Assembly: GCF_000021965.1 (NCBI RefSeq)
Contig: NC_011832.1
Location: 62,001-126,000, forward strand
From: Methanosphaerula palustris E1-9c
GTDB lineage: Archaea; Halobacteriota; Methanomicrobia; Methanomicrobiales; Methanospirillaceae
Length of the DNA stretch: 64,000 bases
Direction of reading: 5' to 3'
Below the pieces are notes generated by a model, which ran no database searches, was not told the origin of the DNA, and was given only the letters and a program-made list of their open reading frames with translations. Of this stretch, positions 39,115 through 45,704 are shown piece by piece; position 1 is the first letter of the stretch; each line of letters opens with the position of its first letter. A program made the translations under genes and the position numbers.

Positions 39115-40392
39115 ATGACAGATGCTGAAATGAAGGTACAGACCGGAACGGATCAGGAGATATTTCTGAGCGAGGTGATCGGGCGGCGGGTGACCGGCAG
39201 GAAGAAGATTGGGAAGCTGTCGGACCTGGTCATTCAGGAGACCGAGCCGCTGCCGCAGGTGACGCATATCGTGGTCTCCAGACCGTTCGGCCATCATCAA
39301 CTGCTGATTCCGATCGACAGGGTCTCTGCGATCGGGTCGCAGGGGGTGCAGGTTGCGGTGGAGAGTCCTGATGCGTTCGAGCAGGACCCGGCGGCCGGTG
39401 CCGTCCTCCTCAAGGATTATGTCCTCGACAAGAAGGTGATCGATGTCGACGACAAGGAGGTGGAGATGGTCTACGATGTTCGGCTGGTCAGGAGGAACGG
39501 AGTCGTCTATGTGACCGATGTGGACACGAGCCGGTTCGGGTTGCTCCGCCGAATCGGGCTGAAGTGGCTGGCCACGTACATCTATGCCCATGGCGAGGGG
39601 ATGGACGAGGAGATGATCTCCTGGCGGTTCATCCAGCCGCTCCCCTCCACCATCACCGGGTTTCGGGGGAATGTGAAGCTGAAGGTGCTGAAGGAGACGC
39701 TCGAGAAGATCCATCCGATGGACCTGGCCGACATCCTTGAGGAGCTGGATCCGGATCAGCGGGTGATGATCTTCTCTGAGCTGGAGACCGAGACGGCCTC
39801 GGATGCGCTGGAGGAGATCGAGCCGAATGTGCAGCGCGAGCTGGTCTCGTCGCTGAGCCGGGATCGGGTGGTGCAGCTGATCGATGAGATGACCCCCGGC
39901 CAGGCCGCCGACCTCCTCTCAGTGTTGCCGCATACCGAGGCGAACGAACTCCTCGAACTGCTCGATACGGTGAATGCGCGAAAGATCAGGGCGATCCTCG
40001 AGAAGCAGGAGGAGACGATCCTGAACTATGCGACGATGAATTGCCTGATGGTGCCGCCGGATAAGACGGCCGAGCAGGTGCGGGTGGAGTACCAGACGGC
40101 GGCCCGGGGGATGGATGTGGTGATGTACCTGTACATCGTCGACTCGGACCAGCATCTGATCGGGGTGCTGGATATCAAGGAACTGCTCGTGGCCGGGGAC
40201 GAAGCACTGATGCGGGAGATCATGATCCCCGAGGTGATCGCCCTGACCCCGGAGAGCACGCTGAAGGAGGCGTATACGCTCTTCGAACGGTATAATCTCC
40301 GGGCCCTGCCGATGGTCGACGGGGAGGACCGGTTGCTCGGGGTGATCCCGTTCCGGGATATCATGAACTTAAAGCACAACTTTCTGGAGTGA
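39115..40392 (+). CDS. PRC-barrel/MgtE_N/CBS regulatory protein without membrane domain
   Basis: This is about 425 residues from the ATG at 39115, preceded by GGGGGTGAAAGGA. Two PRC-barrel-like units are at about 12-75 (SEVIGRRVTGRKKIGKLSDL) and 95-155. The helical MgtE N-domain follows (HPMDLADILEELDPDQRVMIFSEL, broken here; about 195-300), then a pair of CBS domains to residue 420. In MgtE channels these cytosolic domains sense Mg2+ and gate the pore, but here the pore domain is absent. The partner is probably the NRAMP-like transporter two genes upstream. The stop is followed by an oligo-T terminator (CCTTTTTTTGATGG, about 40403-40416). Confidence 0.85.
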   Translation: MTDAEMKVQTGTDQEIFLSEVIGRRVTGRKKIGKLSDLVIQETEPLPQVTHIVVSRPFGHHQLLIPIDRVSAIGSQGVQVAVESPDAFEQDPAAGAVLLKDYVLDKKVIDVDDKEVEMVYDVRLVRRNGVVYVTDVDTSRFGLLRRIGLKWLATYIYAHGEGMDEEMISWRFIQPLPSTITGFRGNVKLKVLKETLEKIHPMDLADILEELDPDQRVMIFSELETETASDALEEIEPNVQRELVSSLSRDRVVQLIDEMTPGQAADLLSVLPHTEANELLELLDTVNARKIRAILEKQEETILNYATMNCLMVPPDKTAEQVRVEYQTAARGMDVVMYLYIVDSDQHLIGVLDIKELLVAGDEALMREIMIPEVIALTPESTLKEAYTLFERYNLRALPMVDGEDRLLGVIPFRDIMNLKHNFLE

Positions 40393-40570
40393 GCGGGCCG
40401 GCCCTTTTTTTGATGGAGGTGTCTCTCTGGTCTGTAGTTGGATGAAAGGCTATTCTGAGGAACGTGTGGTCATGTCGGTGATATCATGATCACGCTGAGG
40501 ATCCCGATCAGTTCTCCATGATCAGCAATAGGAAAGGTTTGCCGGGATCGATAGGGGATGATCCCTACAA

Positions 40571-40616
40571 TTGCCGCAAGTTCCGGGAAAACCGGTAATT
40601 TTCGCCAATTATTGCT
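40571..40616 (+). promoter_or_regulatory. Shared upstream element, copy 1 (D-K operon)
   Basis: This 46-base element begins TTGCCGCAA and continues with TTCC, CGGTA, GCCAA and TTGCT blocks. About 33 of 46 positions match the element at 43709-43754 without gaps. It ends about 15 bases before the TATA-like CTTTATCTG at 40630, which lies 41 bases ahead of the D gene ATG. TTGCCGCAA is itself a palindrome with a one-base centre. Confidence 0.6.
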
Positions 40617-40670
40617 GGTTGGACAGCCGCTTTATCTGCACCAGGAGACTGTTTTACCAGTGATCGCCAG

Positions 40671-42206
40671 ATGGTAACCATTGAAGAACCGTTGATCCAA
40701 AAGATTGATCTCTCCCAGCCCACCTCTCCGAACCGCGAGCAACGGGCCTCCGGGATCAATGTCTACTACGGAAAGGCAAGCCAGCTTACGGAGGATGCAC
40801 GGAACGGATGCCTGAGAGGTCATAATCGTAAATTTCAGCAGACCTCGGGATGTGCCCTGAACTTCTACCTCTCTGTTCGGATCGGTACGATTCGGGATGC
40901 AGTCGCGATCTACCATGCGCCGGTCGGTTGCTCTGCCGCGGCCCTCGGGTACCGGGAGATCTACCGGGGGGTCCCGGTGGAGCTTGGCAGACCTGCAAAC
41001 TTTGAACTTCACTGGATCACGACGAATCTCCGTGAGAACGATGTGGTCTATGGTGCAGGAGAGAAACTGAAGGAAGCTATCCGGGAAGCCGAGCGGAGGT
41101 ACTCCCCCAAGGCGATCTTCATCATGACCTCCTGCACCTCAGGGATCATCGGTGAGGATATCGAAGGAGTCGTCGCAGAGATGCAGCCGGTGACCAAGGC
41201 CGTGCTGGTCCCGATCCACTGTGAGGGGGTCAGGTCCCGTCTGGTCCAGACCGGGTACGACGCGTTCTGGCATGGCGTGCTGAAGTATCTGGTCAGAAAA
41301 CCGGAGAAGAAGCAGAAGGATCTCGTCAATGTGGCGAGTATGCTCTCCTATACCTGGCAGGACCGGCTTGAGATCAAGCGGCTGCTCACCAAACTCGGTC
41401 TTCGGGTGAACTTCATCCCGGAATTCGCCACCGTCGAGGAACTGCAGCAGCTCTCCGAGGCCGCGGTCACCGCCCCGATCTGCCCGACCTACACCGATTA
41501 TCTCTCCCGTGGTCTTGAACAGGAGTACGGAGTTCCGTTCTTCCTCTATCCCTCGCCGATGGGGATTGCAAATACAGACGCCTGGCTGCGGGAGATCGCA
41601 AAGTACACCGGCAAAGAGGTCGAAGTCGAGCAGTTGATCGAGGAGGAGCATAAGCGCTGGGTTCCGCAGATCGAGCGGATCAAGGACGAACTGGCCCATA
41701 TCAAGAAGGACGGTTCGAAGATCTCTGTACTCGGCTCACTCGGACAGGGGAGGTTACTTGCTCAACTTCCCTACTTCGACGAACTCGGGCTTTCATCTCC
41801 TGCGGCGATGTGCCAGGACTTCGATAACCTGATCCTCGAGGAGCTCGAAGGGCTGATCAAAAAGTACGGGGACTTCAACATCCTGGTCAACACCTTCCAG
41901 GCTGCAGAACAGTCCCATATCACCAGGGAGCTCGACCCGGATATCACCCTGACCTGCCCGTTCCAGGGCGGGGCCTTCAAACGGAAGAAGGGGGTGACCA
42001 GGATCCATGCGCTCCGTGGTGACGCAAGCCCCTGGTCCACCCAGTCGGGCTATGCCGGGGCCGTGGCCTTCGGCAACTTCCTGCTTCAGGCACTCAAGAG
42101 TGGTGCATTCCAGGAGTTGATGCTCAAAAAGACCGAGGACAGTTACAAGCAGTGGTGGTATCAGCAGCCCGATCCGCTCCACTACCTCGCCAGGGAGGAA
42201 GAATGA
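40671..42206 (+). CDS. Nitrogenase-like component 1 alpha (NifD-like) subunit
   Basis: This 511-residue member of the nitrogenase component 1 superfamily has cysteines matching the three NifD P-cluster ligands: Cys61 (TSGCALNF), Cys87 (HAPVGCSAA) and Cys155 (MTSCTSGIIGEDI). Cys271 (APICPTYTDYLSRGLEQEYG) and His446 (TRIHALRGD) fall where NifD has the FeMo-cofactor ligands Cys275 and His442. By the same by-eye alignment, NifD Gln191 and His195 are replaced by Val192 and Tyr196, arguing against N2 reduction. It is longer than CfbD, which works without a K partner. It probably pairs with the next gene. The start follows CAGGAG. Substrate unknown; a methylthio-alkane reductase-like role is one possibility. 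Confidence 0.85.
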   Translation: MVTIEEPLIQKIDLSQPTSPNREQRASGINVYYGKASQLTEDARNGCLRGHNRKFQQTSGCALNFYLSVRIGTIRDAVAIYHAPVGCSAAALGYREIYRGVPVELGRPANFELHWITTNLRENDVVYGAGEKLKEAIREAERRYSPKAIFIMTSCTSGIIGEDIEGVVAEMQPVTKAVLVPIHCEGVRSRLVQTGYDAFWHGVLKYLVRKPEKKQKDLVNVASMLSYTWQDRLEIKRLLTKLGLRVNFIPEFATVEELQQLSEAAVTAPICPTYTDYLSRGLEQEYGVPFFLYPSPMGIANTDAWLREIAKYTGKEVEVEQLIEEEHKRWVPQIERIKDELAHIKKDGSKISVLGSLGQGRLLAQLPYFDELGLSSPAAMCQDFDNLILEELEGLIKKYGDFNILVNTFQAAEQSHITRELDPDITLTCPFQGGAFKRKKGVTRIHALRGDASPWSTQSGYAGAVAFGNFLLQALKSGAFQELMLKKTEDSYKQWWYQQPDPLHYLAREEE

Positions 42207-43555
42207 CTTTATCAGAATCTGACGAGCAGCAGACCAGCACAGAGACGACCTCGTCGTCGATCATGGAGGCACCGCGGTACTCCTGCGCCCTTGCCGGCGC
42301 GTACGCCACAGCCACCGGGATCTACGGTGTGGTTCCGATCCTTCATTCCGGAGCGGGCTGTGGTATCGCCCAGCTCTTCGGCCAGTTTTACGCCGCAGGG
42401 CAGAACGCCGGCGGGCCGATCGGAGGGACCAACACTCCCTGCTCGGGGCTGGTCGAGGAGCACGTGATCTTCGGCGGGGAGAAGAAACTCCGCCAGCTCA
42501 TCCAGTCGACGACGGAACTGATGAATGGCACCTTCTATGCGGTCATCGCCGGGTGTGTCCCGTCCCTGATCGGAGACGACATGGCCTCGGTGGTCGGGGA
42601 GTTTCGGAAGCAGGTTCCGATCGTCTTCGTCAACACCAGCGGGTTCAAGGGGACCTCGTACGATGGGTACGAACTCTTCTTCACCTCGGTCATCGACCAG
42701 TTCCTGACGGAGTTACCGGTGGAGAAGGGGACCGTCAACGTCTTTGGAATCGTCCCAGACCAGCATATCTTCTGGAAAGGAGAGTCGCGGGTGATCAAGG
42801 AGACCCTCGCAGAGATCGGGGTGAAGGCGAACGTGATCCTGACCGAACCGGACGGTCTTGAACGGCTGAAGGCCATCCCTGCGGCCGAGTACAACCTGGT
42901 CCTGTCACCATGGAACGGGCACGCGATCGCAGAGCTCCTCAAGGAGAAGTTCAACACCCCGTACCTGACCTTTCCCGGCGTGCCGATCGGCCCGAAGCAG
43001 ACCTCAGTCTTCCTCCGCACCATTGCAGAGACGCTGGGCATCCCCTCAGACCGGGTCGAAGCGGTGATCAAAAAAGAGGAGAAACGTGTCTATCGGGTGA
43101 TGGAACACCTCGGTGATATGCACCTGCTCGTTCGTCCGCACCCGTACTTTGCGGTGGTGGCCGATGCGGGCACGGCAGTCAGTATCACCAACTATCTGAC
43201 CAACGAGATGGGGTACCTGCCGGAGATCGTCCAGATCACCGACAGCCCTCCTGACGAGGTTCGGGACGCGATCGTCGATGCGATCGCGGGCCACCTCGAA
43301 ACTCCGGTCAGACCAGAGGTGATCTTCGAGGCAGATTCGTACAAGATCCGCCAGAACCTGAAGGGACGGTCCTTCATGTTCCTGTACGCCAGTTCTCTCG
43401 AAGCACCGACTGCTATGGAGGAGTTCTCGGCCCTCTCGCTGAGCGTGGCCTTCCCAACCCTGAACCGGCTGATCCTTGAACGGAACTATGCCGGCTTCTC
43501 GGGAGGTCTGACTCTGATGGAGGACAGTATGAGCCCGTTCGCCGGTCCGCTCTAG
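42203..43555 (+). CDS. Nitrogenase-like component 1 beta (NifK-like) subunit
   Basis: This is 450 residues from the ATG at 42203, which overlaps the stop of the D gene (ATGA) and follows GGGAGGAA. The three P-cluster-type cysteines are Cys28 (PRYSCALAG), Cys53 (SGAGCGIAQ) and Cys118 (IAGCVPSLIGDD); Cys80 in NTPCSGLVEEHVIFGG is a further conserved-looking cysteine. The pattern IAGCVPSLIGDDM is the familiar nitrogenase-superfamily turn. No FeMo-cofactor ligand pair is expected or seen. Together with the D subunit it should form an alpha2beta2 catalytic protein reduced by the H protein. Confidence 0.85.
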   Translation: MTLSESDEQQTSTETTSSSIMEAPRYSCALAGAYATATGIYGVVPILHSGAGCGIAQLFGQFYAAGQNAGGPIGGTNTPCSGLVEEHVIFGGEKKLRQLIQSTTELMNGTFYAVIAGCVPSLIGDDMASVVGEFRKQVPIVFVNTSGFKGTSYDGYELFFTSVIDQFLTELPVEKGTVNVFGIVPDQHIFWKGESRVIKETLAEIGVKANVILTEPDGLERLKAIPAAEYNLVLSPWNGHAIAELLKEKFNTPYLTFPGVPIGPKQTSVFLRTIAETLGIPSDRVEAVIKKEEKRVYRVMEHLGDMHLLVRPHPYFAVVADAGTAVSITNYLTNEMGYLPEIVQITDSPPDEVRDAIVDAIAGHLETPVRPEVIFEADSYKIRQNLKGRSFMFLYASSLEAPTAMEEFSALSLSVAFPTLNRLILERNYAGFSGGLTLMEDSMSPFAGPL

Positions 43556-43708
43556 ATCTGGTCCTGAAGAGATCCCTTCAGGGGGATTTCCTCTATTTTT
43601 TGTATATCTGGTGTCCAAAGGGTTGTTCCCCGATGCAGATCGCCCTTTACGTCTTTTACCACTCTTCTCTCATCTCCTGGATCAATCTCTGGGGACAGTC
43701 ACAGGATC

Positions 43709-43754
43709 TTGCCGCAATATCCCGAAATATCGGTAGTACGAGCCAAATTTTGCT
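43709..43754 (+). promoter_or_regulatory. Shared upstream element, copy 2 (H gene)
   Basis: It is the counterpart of the element at 40571-40616, starting TTGCCGCAA, with CGGTA and GCCAAATTTTGC blocks in the same positions. Its start is 97 bases before the H gene ATG (100 bases for the D gene) and 59 bases before the TATA-like TATTTATC at 43768, the same spacing as at the D gene. The D-K and H transcripts are therefore probably under one regulator. Confidence 0.6.
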
Positions 43755-43805
43755 CAATTCTGACCGTATTTATCAATTCAATCCCAATAATCGTATGGTG
43801 ACCAG

Positions 43806-44705
43806 ATGACAGCATCACGTAATATTGCCATTTATGGAAAAGGAGGTATAGGAAAGTCGACGACCTCATCAAATCTCTCTGCAGCCCTCTCTGAACTGGG
43901 CCTCACTGTCATGCAGATCGGGTGCGATCCCAAGGCCGACTCGACCAACAACCTCCGTGGCGGGGAGTCGATCCCCTCGGTGCTGGACGCCCTGCGAAGT
44001 GGAAAGAAGATCGAGATCGGAGATATCGTCTTCAAAGGATTCAATGGGGTTCTCTGTGTCGAGGCCGGCGGGCCCGAGCCCGGAGTCGGCTGCGCAGGCC
44101 GGGGAATCATCACGGCCATCGAACTGCTGAAACAGAAGAAGGTCTTTGAGGAGTTCTCCCCTGATATCGTGCTGTACGATGTGCTCGGCGATGTGGTCTG
44201 CGGTGGTTTCTCTGTCCCGATCCGGGAAGGAGTGGCAGAGCAGGTCTATACCGTCGCCTCTTCCGACTTCATGGCTCTCTATGCCGCCAATAATCTCTTC
44301 AAGGGGATCAAGAAGTATGCGAACAATGGTGGAGCTCTCTTCAGCGGGATCATCGCAAACTCGATGAGCAAGCCGGTCCAGCGGGAGATCATCGATGATT
44401 TCGCCGTTCATACGTCGACGACCGTCGCAGGCTACGTGGAGCGATCTCTGGCCGTGACCAGGAGTGAACTCCGGGGGCAGACGGTCATCGAACGGGATCC
44501 TGACTCCCCCCAGGCCGATGTCTATCGAAGGCTTGCGAAGGGGATTGTCGAGAATCAGAAGCGGTATGTTCCCGCTCCGCTCGATGCCGAAGAACTCAAA
44601 AAGTGGGCTTCCAGCTGGTCTGATCGGATCATCGGGCAGGACGCTGACGAGGAGGCCCCCAAGAGCACATCATATCCACCAGCAGGGAGTGAGGGACTCA
44701 GTTAA
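43806..44705 (+). CDS. Nitrogenase-like reductase (NifH-like) iron-sulfur ATPase
   Basis: This 299-residue protein has P-loop GKGGIGKST at residues 11-19, switch [10 protein letters not shown], and the two [4Fe-4S] ligands Cys96 (GVGCAGRG) and Cys132 ([12 protein letters not shown]). GCAGRG retains the Arg that is ADP-ribosylated in NifH. It should transfer electrons, at the cost of ATP, to the D-K protein encoded upstream. The tail after residue 265 is acidic then Ser/Pro-rich and unlike NifH. It has its own promoter: a TATA-like TATTTATC lies 38 bases before ATG, so the leader is very short. It is not CfbC by context, because a two-subunit D-K partner is present. Confidence 0.88.
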
Positions 44706-44855
44706 TCTCTTTCCCCTCTCTGATGAACATCTATTTTTGTATATCCTCAGGGGGTTCTGTAGATATTATCATGGATTTACTCAGCACGGTGTGCACCGCG
44801 GGGATGATGATCCCTGTCCTCTGAACGACTGATCTCCAGGACAGATCAGTATCGG

Positions 44856-45104
44856 GTGCTGATCGATCAACAGGGGACCGGGCATATCCGGATCACGAGG
44901 CGGGTGAACTTCCGGGTGATCCTCTCTCTGCTGGGCGATCTCTTCACCACGCTTCAGGATGAGGGGAAAGATCCGGTGATCACCCTGTATCTCACCCAGT
45001 CACTCTGTGCCGATATGTCGGATAACATCTCTGCGTTCATCGAATTCTGTAACCGCTGTCTTGCAGGGACGGTCAGTCTGGTGGTCATCGATCAGGAGCC
45101 ATGA
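44856..45104 (+). CDS. Hypothetical protein, 82 residues, next to the nitrogenase-like genes
   Basis: A GTG start opens an 82-codon frame with an alternating hydrophobic/charged pattern (HIRITRRVNFRVILSLLGDL, then DPVITLYLTQSLCADMSD, ending VSLVVIDQEP). The predicted beta-alpha-beta pattern and length recall a small STAS- or Clp-like fold, but I cannot name a family. It follows the H gene by 150 bases with no clear promoter, and is followed by the 22-bp palindrome. It may be real because the frame is well used and the next gene starts immediately after. Confidence 0.5.
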   Translation: MLIDQQGTGHIRITRRVNFRVILSLLGDLFTTLQDEGKDPVITLYLTQSLCADMSDNISAFIEFCNRCLAGTVSLVVIDQEP

Positions 45105-45112
45105 CCTGCAGA

Positions 45113-45134
45113 TCACAATTGTTAACAATTGTGA
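45113..45134. promoter_or_regulatory. Perfect 22-bp palindrome, probable operator
   Basis: The half-site TCACAATTGTT is followed directly by its exact reverse complement, AACAATTGTGA, giving a 22-base perfect palindrome. It lies 31 bases before the GTG at 45165 of the winged-helix gene. This is where an autoregulatory operator would be expected. Its symmetry fits a dimeric winged-helix protein. Confidence 0.65.
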
Positions 45135-45164
45135 ACTCCTAGATAGTAGTGTGAGAAATCATGA

Positions 45165-45443
45165 GTGATCGTTTTTGTCTCCGCACATGAAAATCCCGTG
45201 AAGAGCTCTGCAGACCGAATGATCCACCTGCCCCCTTCGGCGAAGCTCGTGTACAGGGTGATCGAGACGGATGGTGCACAGACCCAGAAGGATCTGATCC
45301 AGAAGACCACGCTCCCTTCCCGGACTGTCAGGTATGCAATCAGCAGATTGCGGGAAGCAGATATCATATCAGAGCGGTTTCACTTCATCGATGCTCGTCA
45401 GAGTCTCTATGGGTTGAAGGTCGCTTCTGACCGGGGGGTATGA
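45165..45443 (+). CDS. Small winged-helix (MarR/TrmB-like) DNA-binding protein
   Basis: This is up to 92 residues; the DNA-binding domain is residues 19-86. The segment LPPSAKLVYRVIETDGAQTQKD is followed by the recognition helix LPSRTVRYAISRLREADII and a wing ending SLYGLK. Starts at GTG 45165, GTG 45198 or ATG 45219 are all possible; the last begins exactly at the domain. It is preceded by the perfect palindrome at 45113-45134, suggesting self-regulation, and sits 460 bases downstream of the NifH-like gene. It may control the nitrogenase-like cluster, but this is inference. Confidence 0.72.
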   Translation: MIVFVSAHENPVKSSADRMIHLPPSAKLVYRVIETDGAQTQKDLIQKTTLPSRTVRYAISRLREADIISERFHFIDARQSLYGLKVASDRGV

Positions 45444-45704
45444 AGTACCCGTGCCGGTCATATCAGAACCTGGTGCCGATCTATCGGTAATCATCACGAA
45501 AATTCCTTTTTTTTTCGCGCTCTCCGTCTGGCGCATGGTTTAACCCACCCGTGGCTTCCTGACGGAGCCGGCTGATTCAAGCGACATATGGATACGGGGG
45601 GTTTGGATGCCTACCTCGATAGCCCCCTGCAATGAGGAGAGAGCGAATCCCTCCTCAATCTTTTTCTCAGATCAGTGTTTCAGATCACTGTACCAGGAGA
45701 TTGC

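Follow-up and report, generated by a model that had tools for sequence, protein, structure and literature searches.

A 46-bp element as a putative operator of a sulfur-scavenging regulon common to Methanomicrobiales, Methanosarcina and Methanoperedens

Results

Group IV nitrogenase-like genes at the locus

The DNA analyzed here, referred to as the window, is a 64,000-nucleotide stretch of Methanosphaerula palustris E1-9c (positions 62001-126000 of a single 2,922,917-bp contig). Two neighboring transcription units on one strand encode the nitrogenase-like proteins D and K and the NifH-like reductase H, and are followed by genes for a small conserved protein and a winged-helix protein (Table 1). 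When compared with solved chains, D matched 9fmg_A (3.7e-77) far better than the best Nif chain (3.7e-33), H behaved likewise (8.6e-119 for 9fmg_D against 9.8e-85), and D, K, and H all missed the nifD, nifE, and nifH equivalog cutoffs. From their sequences, D-K-H are assigned to the group IV nitrogenase-like proteins, on the Mar/Isr/Nfa side, whose substrate may be a thioether, a sulfonate such as isethionate (PMC11423573), or another compound. Structures 9fmg and 9d9u represent the methylthio-alkane reductase MarBHDK of Rhodospirillum rubrum, with 9fmg_A and 9d9u_A being MarD (PMC12552129). Although chains of this enzyme are the best solved relatives of D and H, the arrangement in M. palustris differs in that D-K and H are separate transcription units and no MarB was recognized beside them.

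Table 1. Features of the D-K-H locus (window coordinates)
Feature	Position	Strand	Remarks
46-bp element upstream of D-K	40571..40616	+	left half TTGCCGCAA 40571-40579, right half GCCAATTATTGCT 40604-40616
TATA-like box TTTATCTG before D	40631..40638	+	element position 61; read from sequence
D, nitrogenase component-1 alpha-like (group IV)	40671..42206	+	nearest solved chains 9fmg_A, 9d9u_A
K, nitrogenase component-1 beta-like partner	42203..43555	+	overlaps D end
46-bp element upstream of H	43709..43754	+	left half TTGCCGCAA 43709-43717, right half GCCAAATTTTGCT 43742-43754
TATA-like box TTTATCAA before H	43769..43776	+	element position 61; read from sequence
H, NifH-like reductase	43806..44705	+	nearest solved chain 9fmg_D
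Small conserved protein (about 95 aa in relatives)	44838..45104	+	recurs in operons behind element
Palindrome TTAACAATTGTGAA before winged-helix gene	45122..45135		second motif, differing from element
Winged-helix protein, 92 aa, sulfur-island clade	45165..45443	+	candidate regulator

A shared element in the two promoters

The first-pass annotation had claimed that the two 46-mers agree at about 33 of 46 ungapped positions, and realignment returned 33, with the blocks TTGCCGCAA, TCC, CGGTA, GCCAA, and TTGCT common to both; similarity drops to background on either side. Over 2000 Markov shuffles of the intergenic regions, which are 278 and 250 bp long, the best 46-mer match had a mean of 23.9 and a maximum of 30; none reached 33, and chance was rejected as the source of the match. 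The proposed phasing with the TATA box is indeed identical in both promoters, but the distance from element start to TTTATC (40631 and 43769) is 60 bases rather than the 59 originally given; the ATG follows at 100 (D) and 97 (H) bases, in keeping with the earlier figure of about 100.

A genome-wide search with the 27-base core of the motif retrieved exactly two sites at ≤3 mismatches in the whole 2.92-Mb genome, whereas the reversed control retrieved zero; random matches of equal quality do not occur genome-wide. Further genome-wide searches employed consensus patterns, which at ≤2 mismatches gave 8 matches in the M. palustris genome versus 6 controls, mostly background, and we therefore claim just three strong sites in this genome, the third lying on the minus strand at contig positions 1162345-1162390. 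The proximity of the element to the start codons would fit a role as RNA, in a leader or riboswitch, but its location upstream of the TATA box at fixed phasing, together with the lack of any Rfam match in 40380-45700, makes this reading most improbable.

Anatomy of the element

The element can be written as TTGCCGCAA-N26-CCAA-N3-TTGCT(GATT); the consensus of 32 curated sites begins with TTGCCGCAA and continues, after the intervening bases, with (G)CCAA-N3-TTGCTgaTT. The spacing between TTGCC and TTGC is invariant at 41 bp: TTGCC occupies position 1, and TTGC position 42, each in 31 of the 32 sites. Since 41 bp corresponds to approximately four helical turns, the two TTGC cores lie on the same DNA face. 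Each half includes a palindrome: a small one, TTGC-C-GCAA, on the left and CAAT-N-ATTG on the right. The 3' end is located just upstream of the BRE/TATA region; the best TATA start falls at element positions 57-61 in 23 of the 32 sites, and an ungapped alignment of 12 promoters from three lineages spans the element and everything up to the TATA box.

With 12 D/H sites as its training set, a weight matrix scored 50 sites higher than 15 bits across 632 kb of loci, many of them outside that set, compared with 0.6 in shuffles; because some of these loci had been fetched for matching the pattern, we take the control counts of the pattern searches, given below, as the unbiased measure. A simplified MsvR-type box (TTCG..CGAA) was sought in the 32 elements and found in none.

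Conservation in other archaea

D orthologues sharing about 65-79% identity occur within the class, and orthologues are also present in Methanosarcina, Methanothrix, Methanobacteriales, Methanoperedens, and a small number of bacterial metagenome-assembled genomes. A recurrent layout, TTGCCG-N35-TTGCT, always spanning 46 bp, precedes D and/or H orthologues in Methanomicrobiales, Methanosarcina, and Methanoperedens, and the element is thus kept upstream of orthologues, a point that the first-pass annotation had proposed to check. The pattern TTGCCG-N29-CA-N4-TTGCT, with the reversed pattern as a control, gave 11 matches versus 0 controls (about 1 expected) in the nine genomes of the class defined as D bearing by a match at E ≤ 1e-60, one of which has a 41% relative only; the remaining 223 genomes of the class gave 12 matches to the same pattern versus 22 controls (hand-counted), which is background. 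In 112 Methanosarcinaceae genomes there were 19 matches versus 1 control, and those strong ones for which the downstream gene could be identified precede H, with 96-97 bp from element start to likely ATG. A related pattern gave 24 matches versus 0 controls in 34 Methanoperedenaceae genomes.

Variation is evident at some sites: those before H in G078, G080, and G114 have a poorly matching right half, and those before H in G207 and G200 end in TTGCA. The element is absent upstream of the D and H orthologues of Methanothrix and Methanobacteriales. In Methanothrix, both D and H are preceded by another element, GCAATATTTGCAYRTTTCTTC, which recalls just the right half (L019), and AACAATTGTT is present before D/H in the Methanobacteriales orthologues. 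Genome G158 carries three D-K sets in 20 kb (L032 and L033): in two of them D has an element of its own in front, and the third set follows an H gene that is itself preceded by the element. One contig labeled Planctomycetota (L016) holds a D gene and an element nearly identical to Methanosarcina copies, and is probably misbinned.

D-K and H are neighbors on one strand, and the 33/46 match could in principle be a relic of a duplicated promoter that no longer has a function. However, the flanks share no similarity, and in other families and orders the same element with the same spacing stands in front of genes of unrelated kinds; because the element is conserved, we regard a duplication remnant as refuted for practical purposes.

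Other targets of the element

The gene behind the third M. palustris site encodes an ABC-transporter ATPase that scores best against families of nitrate/taurine/sulfonate-type importers; genes for an NMT1-type binding protein and a member of the sulfite/nitrite-reductase family are found no more than 10 kb away. The same type of ABC operon stands behind the element in G158, G204, G179, G182, Methanosarcina, and Methanoperedens; the best families of these element-led transporters are of the SsuA/SsuB/TauC type, and an SsuA-family binding protein is present in the operons where it was scored. In Methanoperedens, the element also precedes an O-acetylhomoserine sulfhydrylase gene followed by MetX, and a DsrE-DsrE operon with TusA nearby, an arrangement kept in several genomes of that family. 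In G080, G078, and G158, the element precedes the gene for the small conserved protein, which is followed by the winged-helix gene. There are exceptions, namely, one Methanoregula-like site before an amino-acid permease-like gene and one Methanoperedens site before a gene for a BadF/BcrAD-type ATPase. Homology-based annotation thus identifies co-targets independent of D and H as sulfur-acquisition genes, and sulfur acquisition is the common theme of the targets as predicted from sequence. As a separate observation, contig C57 of Methanoperedens G235 (L115-L117 and L027) carries about ten elements in 60 kb, a region with two D-K types, several SsuABC-like systems, HGD-D/BcrAD-type genes, and DsrE/TusA/heterodisulfide-reductase-like genes.

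In methanogens, nif genes are under NrpR control, and D-K and H are nif homologues, so an NrpR-type nitrogen regulator might be expected to control them as nif-like genes. The element and the NrpR operator are alike in being archaeal sequences near nif-type promoters, but the NrpR consensus GGAA-N6-TTCC, which serves nitrogen regulation of nif and gln genes, is absent from all 32 elements, and the co-targets are sulfur genes; control by NrpR is accordingly very unlikely.

The winged-helix gene and a second palindrome

A candidate reader of the element is the winged-helix protein encoded next to H, which might bind the 46-bp sequence and autoregulate through it. Members of its clade are found 1-8 kb from the element in M. 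palustris, G080, G078, G158, G182, G179, Methanosarcina, and Methanoperedens, with the order element, small protein, winged-helix gene at part of these loci; the clade is present in 8 of 9 D-bearing genomes versus 26 of 223 others (p about 8e-7, uncorrected for kinship), and in genomes lacking D it adjoins metX/metY. Against this, nearly all copies examined are preceded by another conserved palindrome, TTNACAATTGTNAA, which is more likely to be the protein's own operator and occurs in 0 of 32 elements, and many genomes have the winged-helix protein without the element. Because the palindrome fronts its genes and is absent from the elements, the winged-helix protein more probably reads the palindrome, with the element having another reader; direct binding of the element by this protein is doubtful, and the two sequences more probably form one circuit with two readers.

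The palindrome clusters strongly in the sulfur-gene islands of several methanogens, with 9 of 9 copies within 29 kb in G080 and 8 of 8 within 35 kb in G114; further copies lie at G000:C1 positions 1182273, 1197721, 1204903, 2054731, 2058361, and 2565172. A fold search with the winged-helix protein gave generic winged-helix, MarR, and Lrp-like matches, none with an E value below 0.001. Some of its relatives give a weak score for the family of MsvR, an archaeal redox/sulfur-linked regulator of methanogens, but these scores are far below the family cutoff. In most genomes, the winged-helix frame has no ATG, GTG, or TTG at the conserved IVFV start (window 45150-45185; L034, L069, and L118-L129); an in-frame TGA directly precedes GGG ATC GTT TTT GTC, and the frame of a conserved ATG is a different one, raising the question of an unusual start codon or a programmed frameshift. 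The small conserved protein belongs to no Pfam family, and a confident model of it gave no significant fold match; in M. palustris, no in-frame start codon precedes its conserved part (window 44706-45104), and this copy may be decayed or have an unusual start.

Discussion

The first-pass annotation had suggested that one transcription factor controls both D-K and H, and the genome-unique element, the identical TATA phasing, and the conservation, at invariant spacing, before D and/or H in other genera and orders all back that proposal. It was, if anything, too modest: the element also stands before transporter, sulfhydrylase, and sulfur-relay genes, and the sequence comparisons therefore support a putative regulon. 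We propose, with a probability of roughly 0.78, that the 46-bp element is the operator of a sulfur-scavenging regulon common to Methanomicrobiales, Methanosarcina, and Methanoperedens. A single transcription factor would contact the half-sites TTGCCGCAA and (G)CCAA-N3-TTGCT, probably in the form of two dimers or a tetramer, and would sit on a single DNA face, at a site that stops a few bases short of the BRE/TATA box. Archaeal activators commonly bind just upstream of the BRE/TATA region, and because the element ends there, we infer activation in preference to repression: when reduced sulfur is scarce, the bound factor would most likely activate transcription, so that D-K, H, the SsuABC/TauABC-type importers, homocysteine synthase, and the sulfur relay would be switched on together.

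The recognition and activation sites of LysR-type regulators are two half-sites at fixed spacing upstream of the promoter, and the element, with its own pair of fixed-spaced half-sites, resembles such sites closely enough for an activator akin to bacterial CysB or SalR to deserve consideration. A PF00126 search that was positive in control genomes, including Methanosarcina acetivorans, nevertheless found no LysR protein in G000, G158, G078, G080, G114, G179, G182, G200, G204, or G207, and binding of both half-sites by a LysR-type activator is hardly credible. The parallel with bacterial organosulfur regulation, exemplified by CysB/Cbl and ssu, lies instead in the pairing of SsuABC-type importers with a group IV nitrogenase-like reductase, as in Rhodobacter capsulatus, in which isethionate induces isrBHDK, with SsuCAB uptake (PMC11423573). 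The systems differ in that the promoter here is an archaeal TATA promoter, the DNA motif is different, and the element-bearing genomes of the class have no LysR protein.

In an extended form of our proposal, to which we give even odds, the element would be the site of an undescribed sulfur-status regulator, D-K-H would act in organosulfur scavenging through C-S cleavage of thioethers or sulfonates, and TTNACAATTGTNAA, as a second, palindromic operator and the likely target of the winged-helix protein, would make this a two-tier sulfur circuit. The first-pass annotation knew of no archaeal operator of such sequence, and the open-access literature likewise yielded none; nor did we find there the motif, the regulon, or a link of methanogen group IV nitrogenase-like genes to sulfur importers.

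Since the same switch with the same spacing is found before sulfur genes elsewhere, the element is probably the mark of a single network of sulfur-scavenging genes, undescribed to date, that methane-making and methane-eating archaea have in common. Knowledge of sulfur sensing and scavenging in methanogens and Methanoperedens is scant. The putative operator and its target list predict that D-K, H, and the co-target genes respond to the sulfur source; the element could serve as a probe with which to fish out the regulator, and the motif could be used to annotate more sulfur genes across archaea, including uncharacterized transporters and a new family of small proteins.
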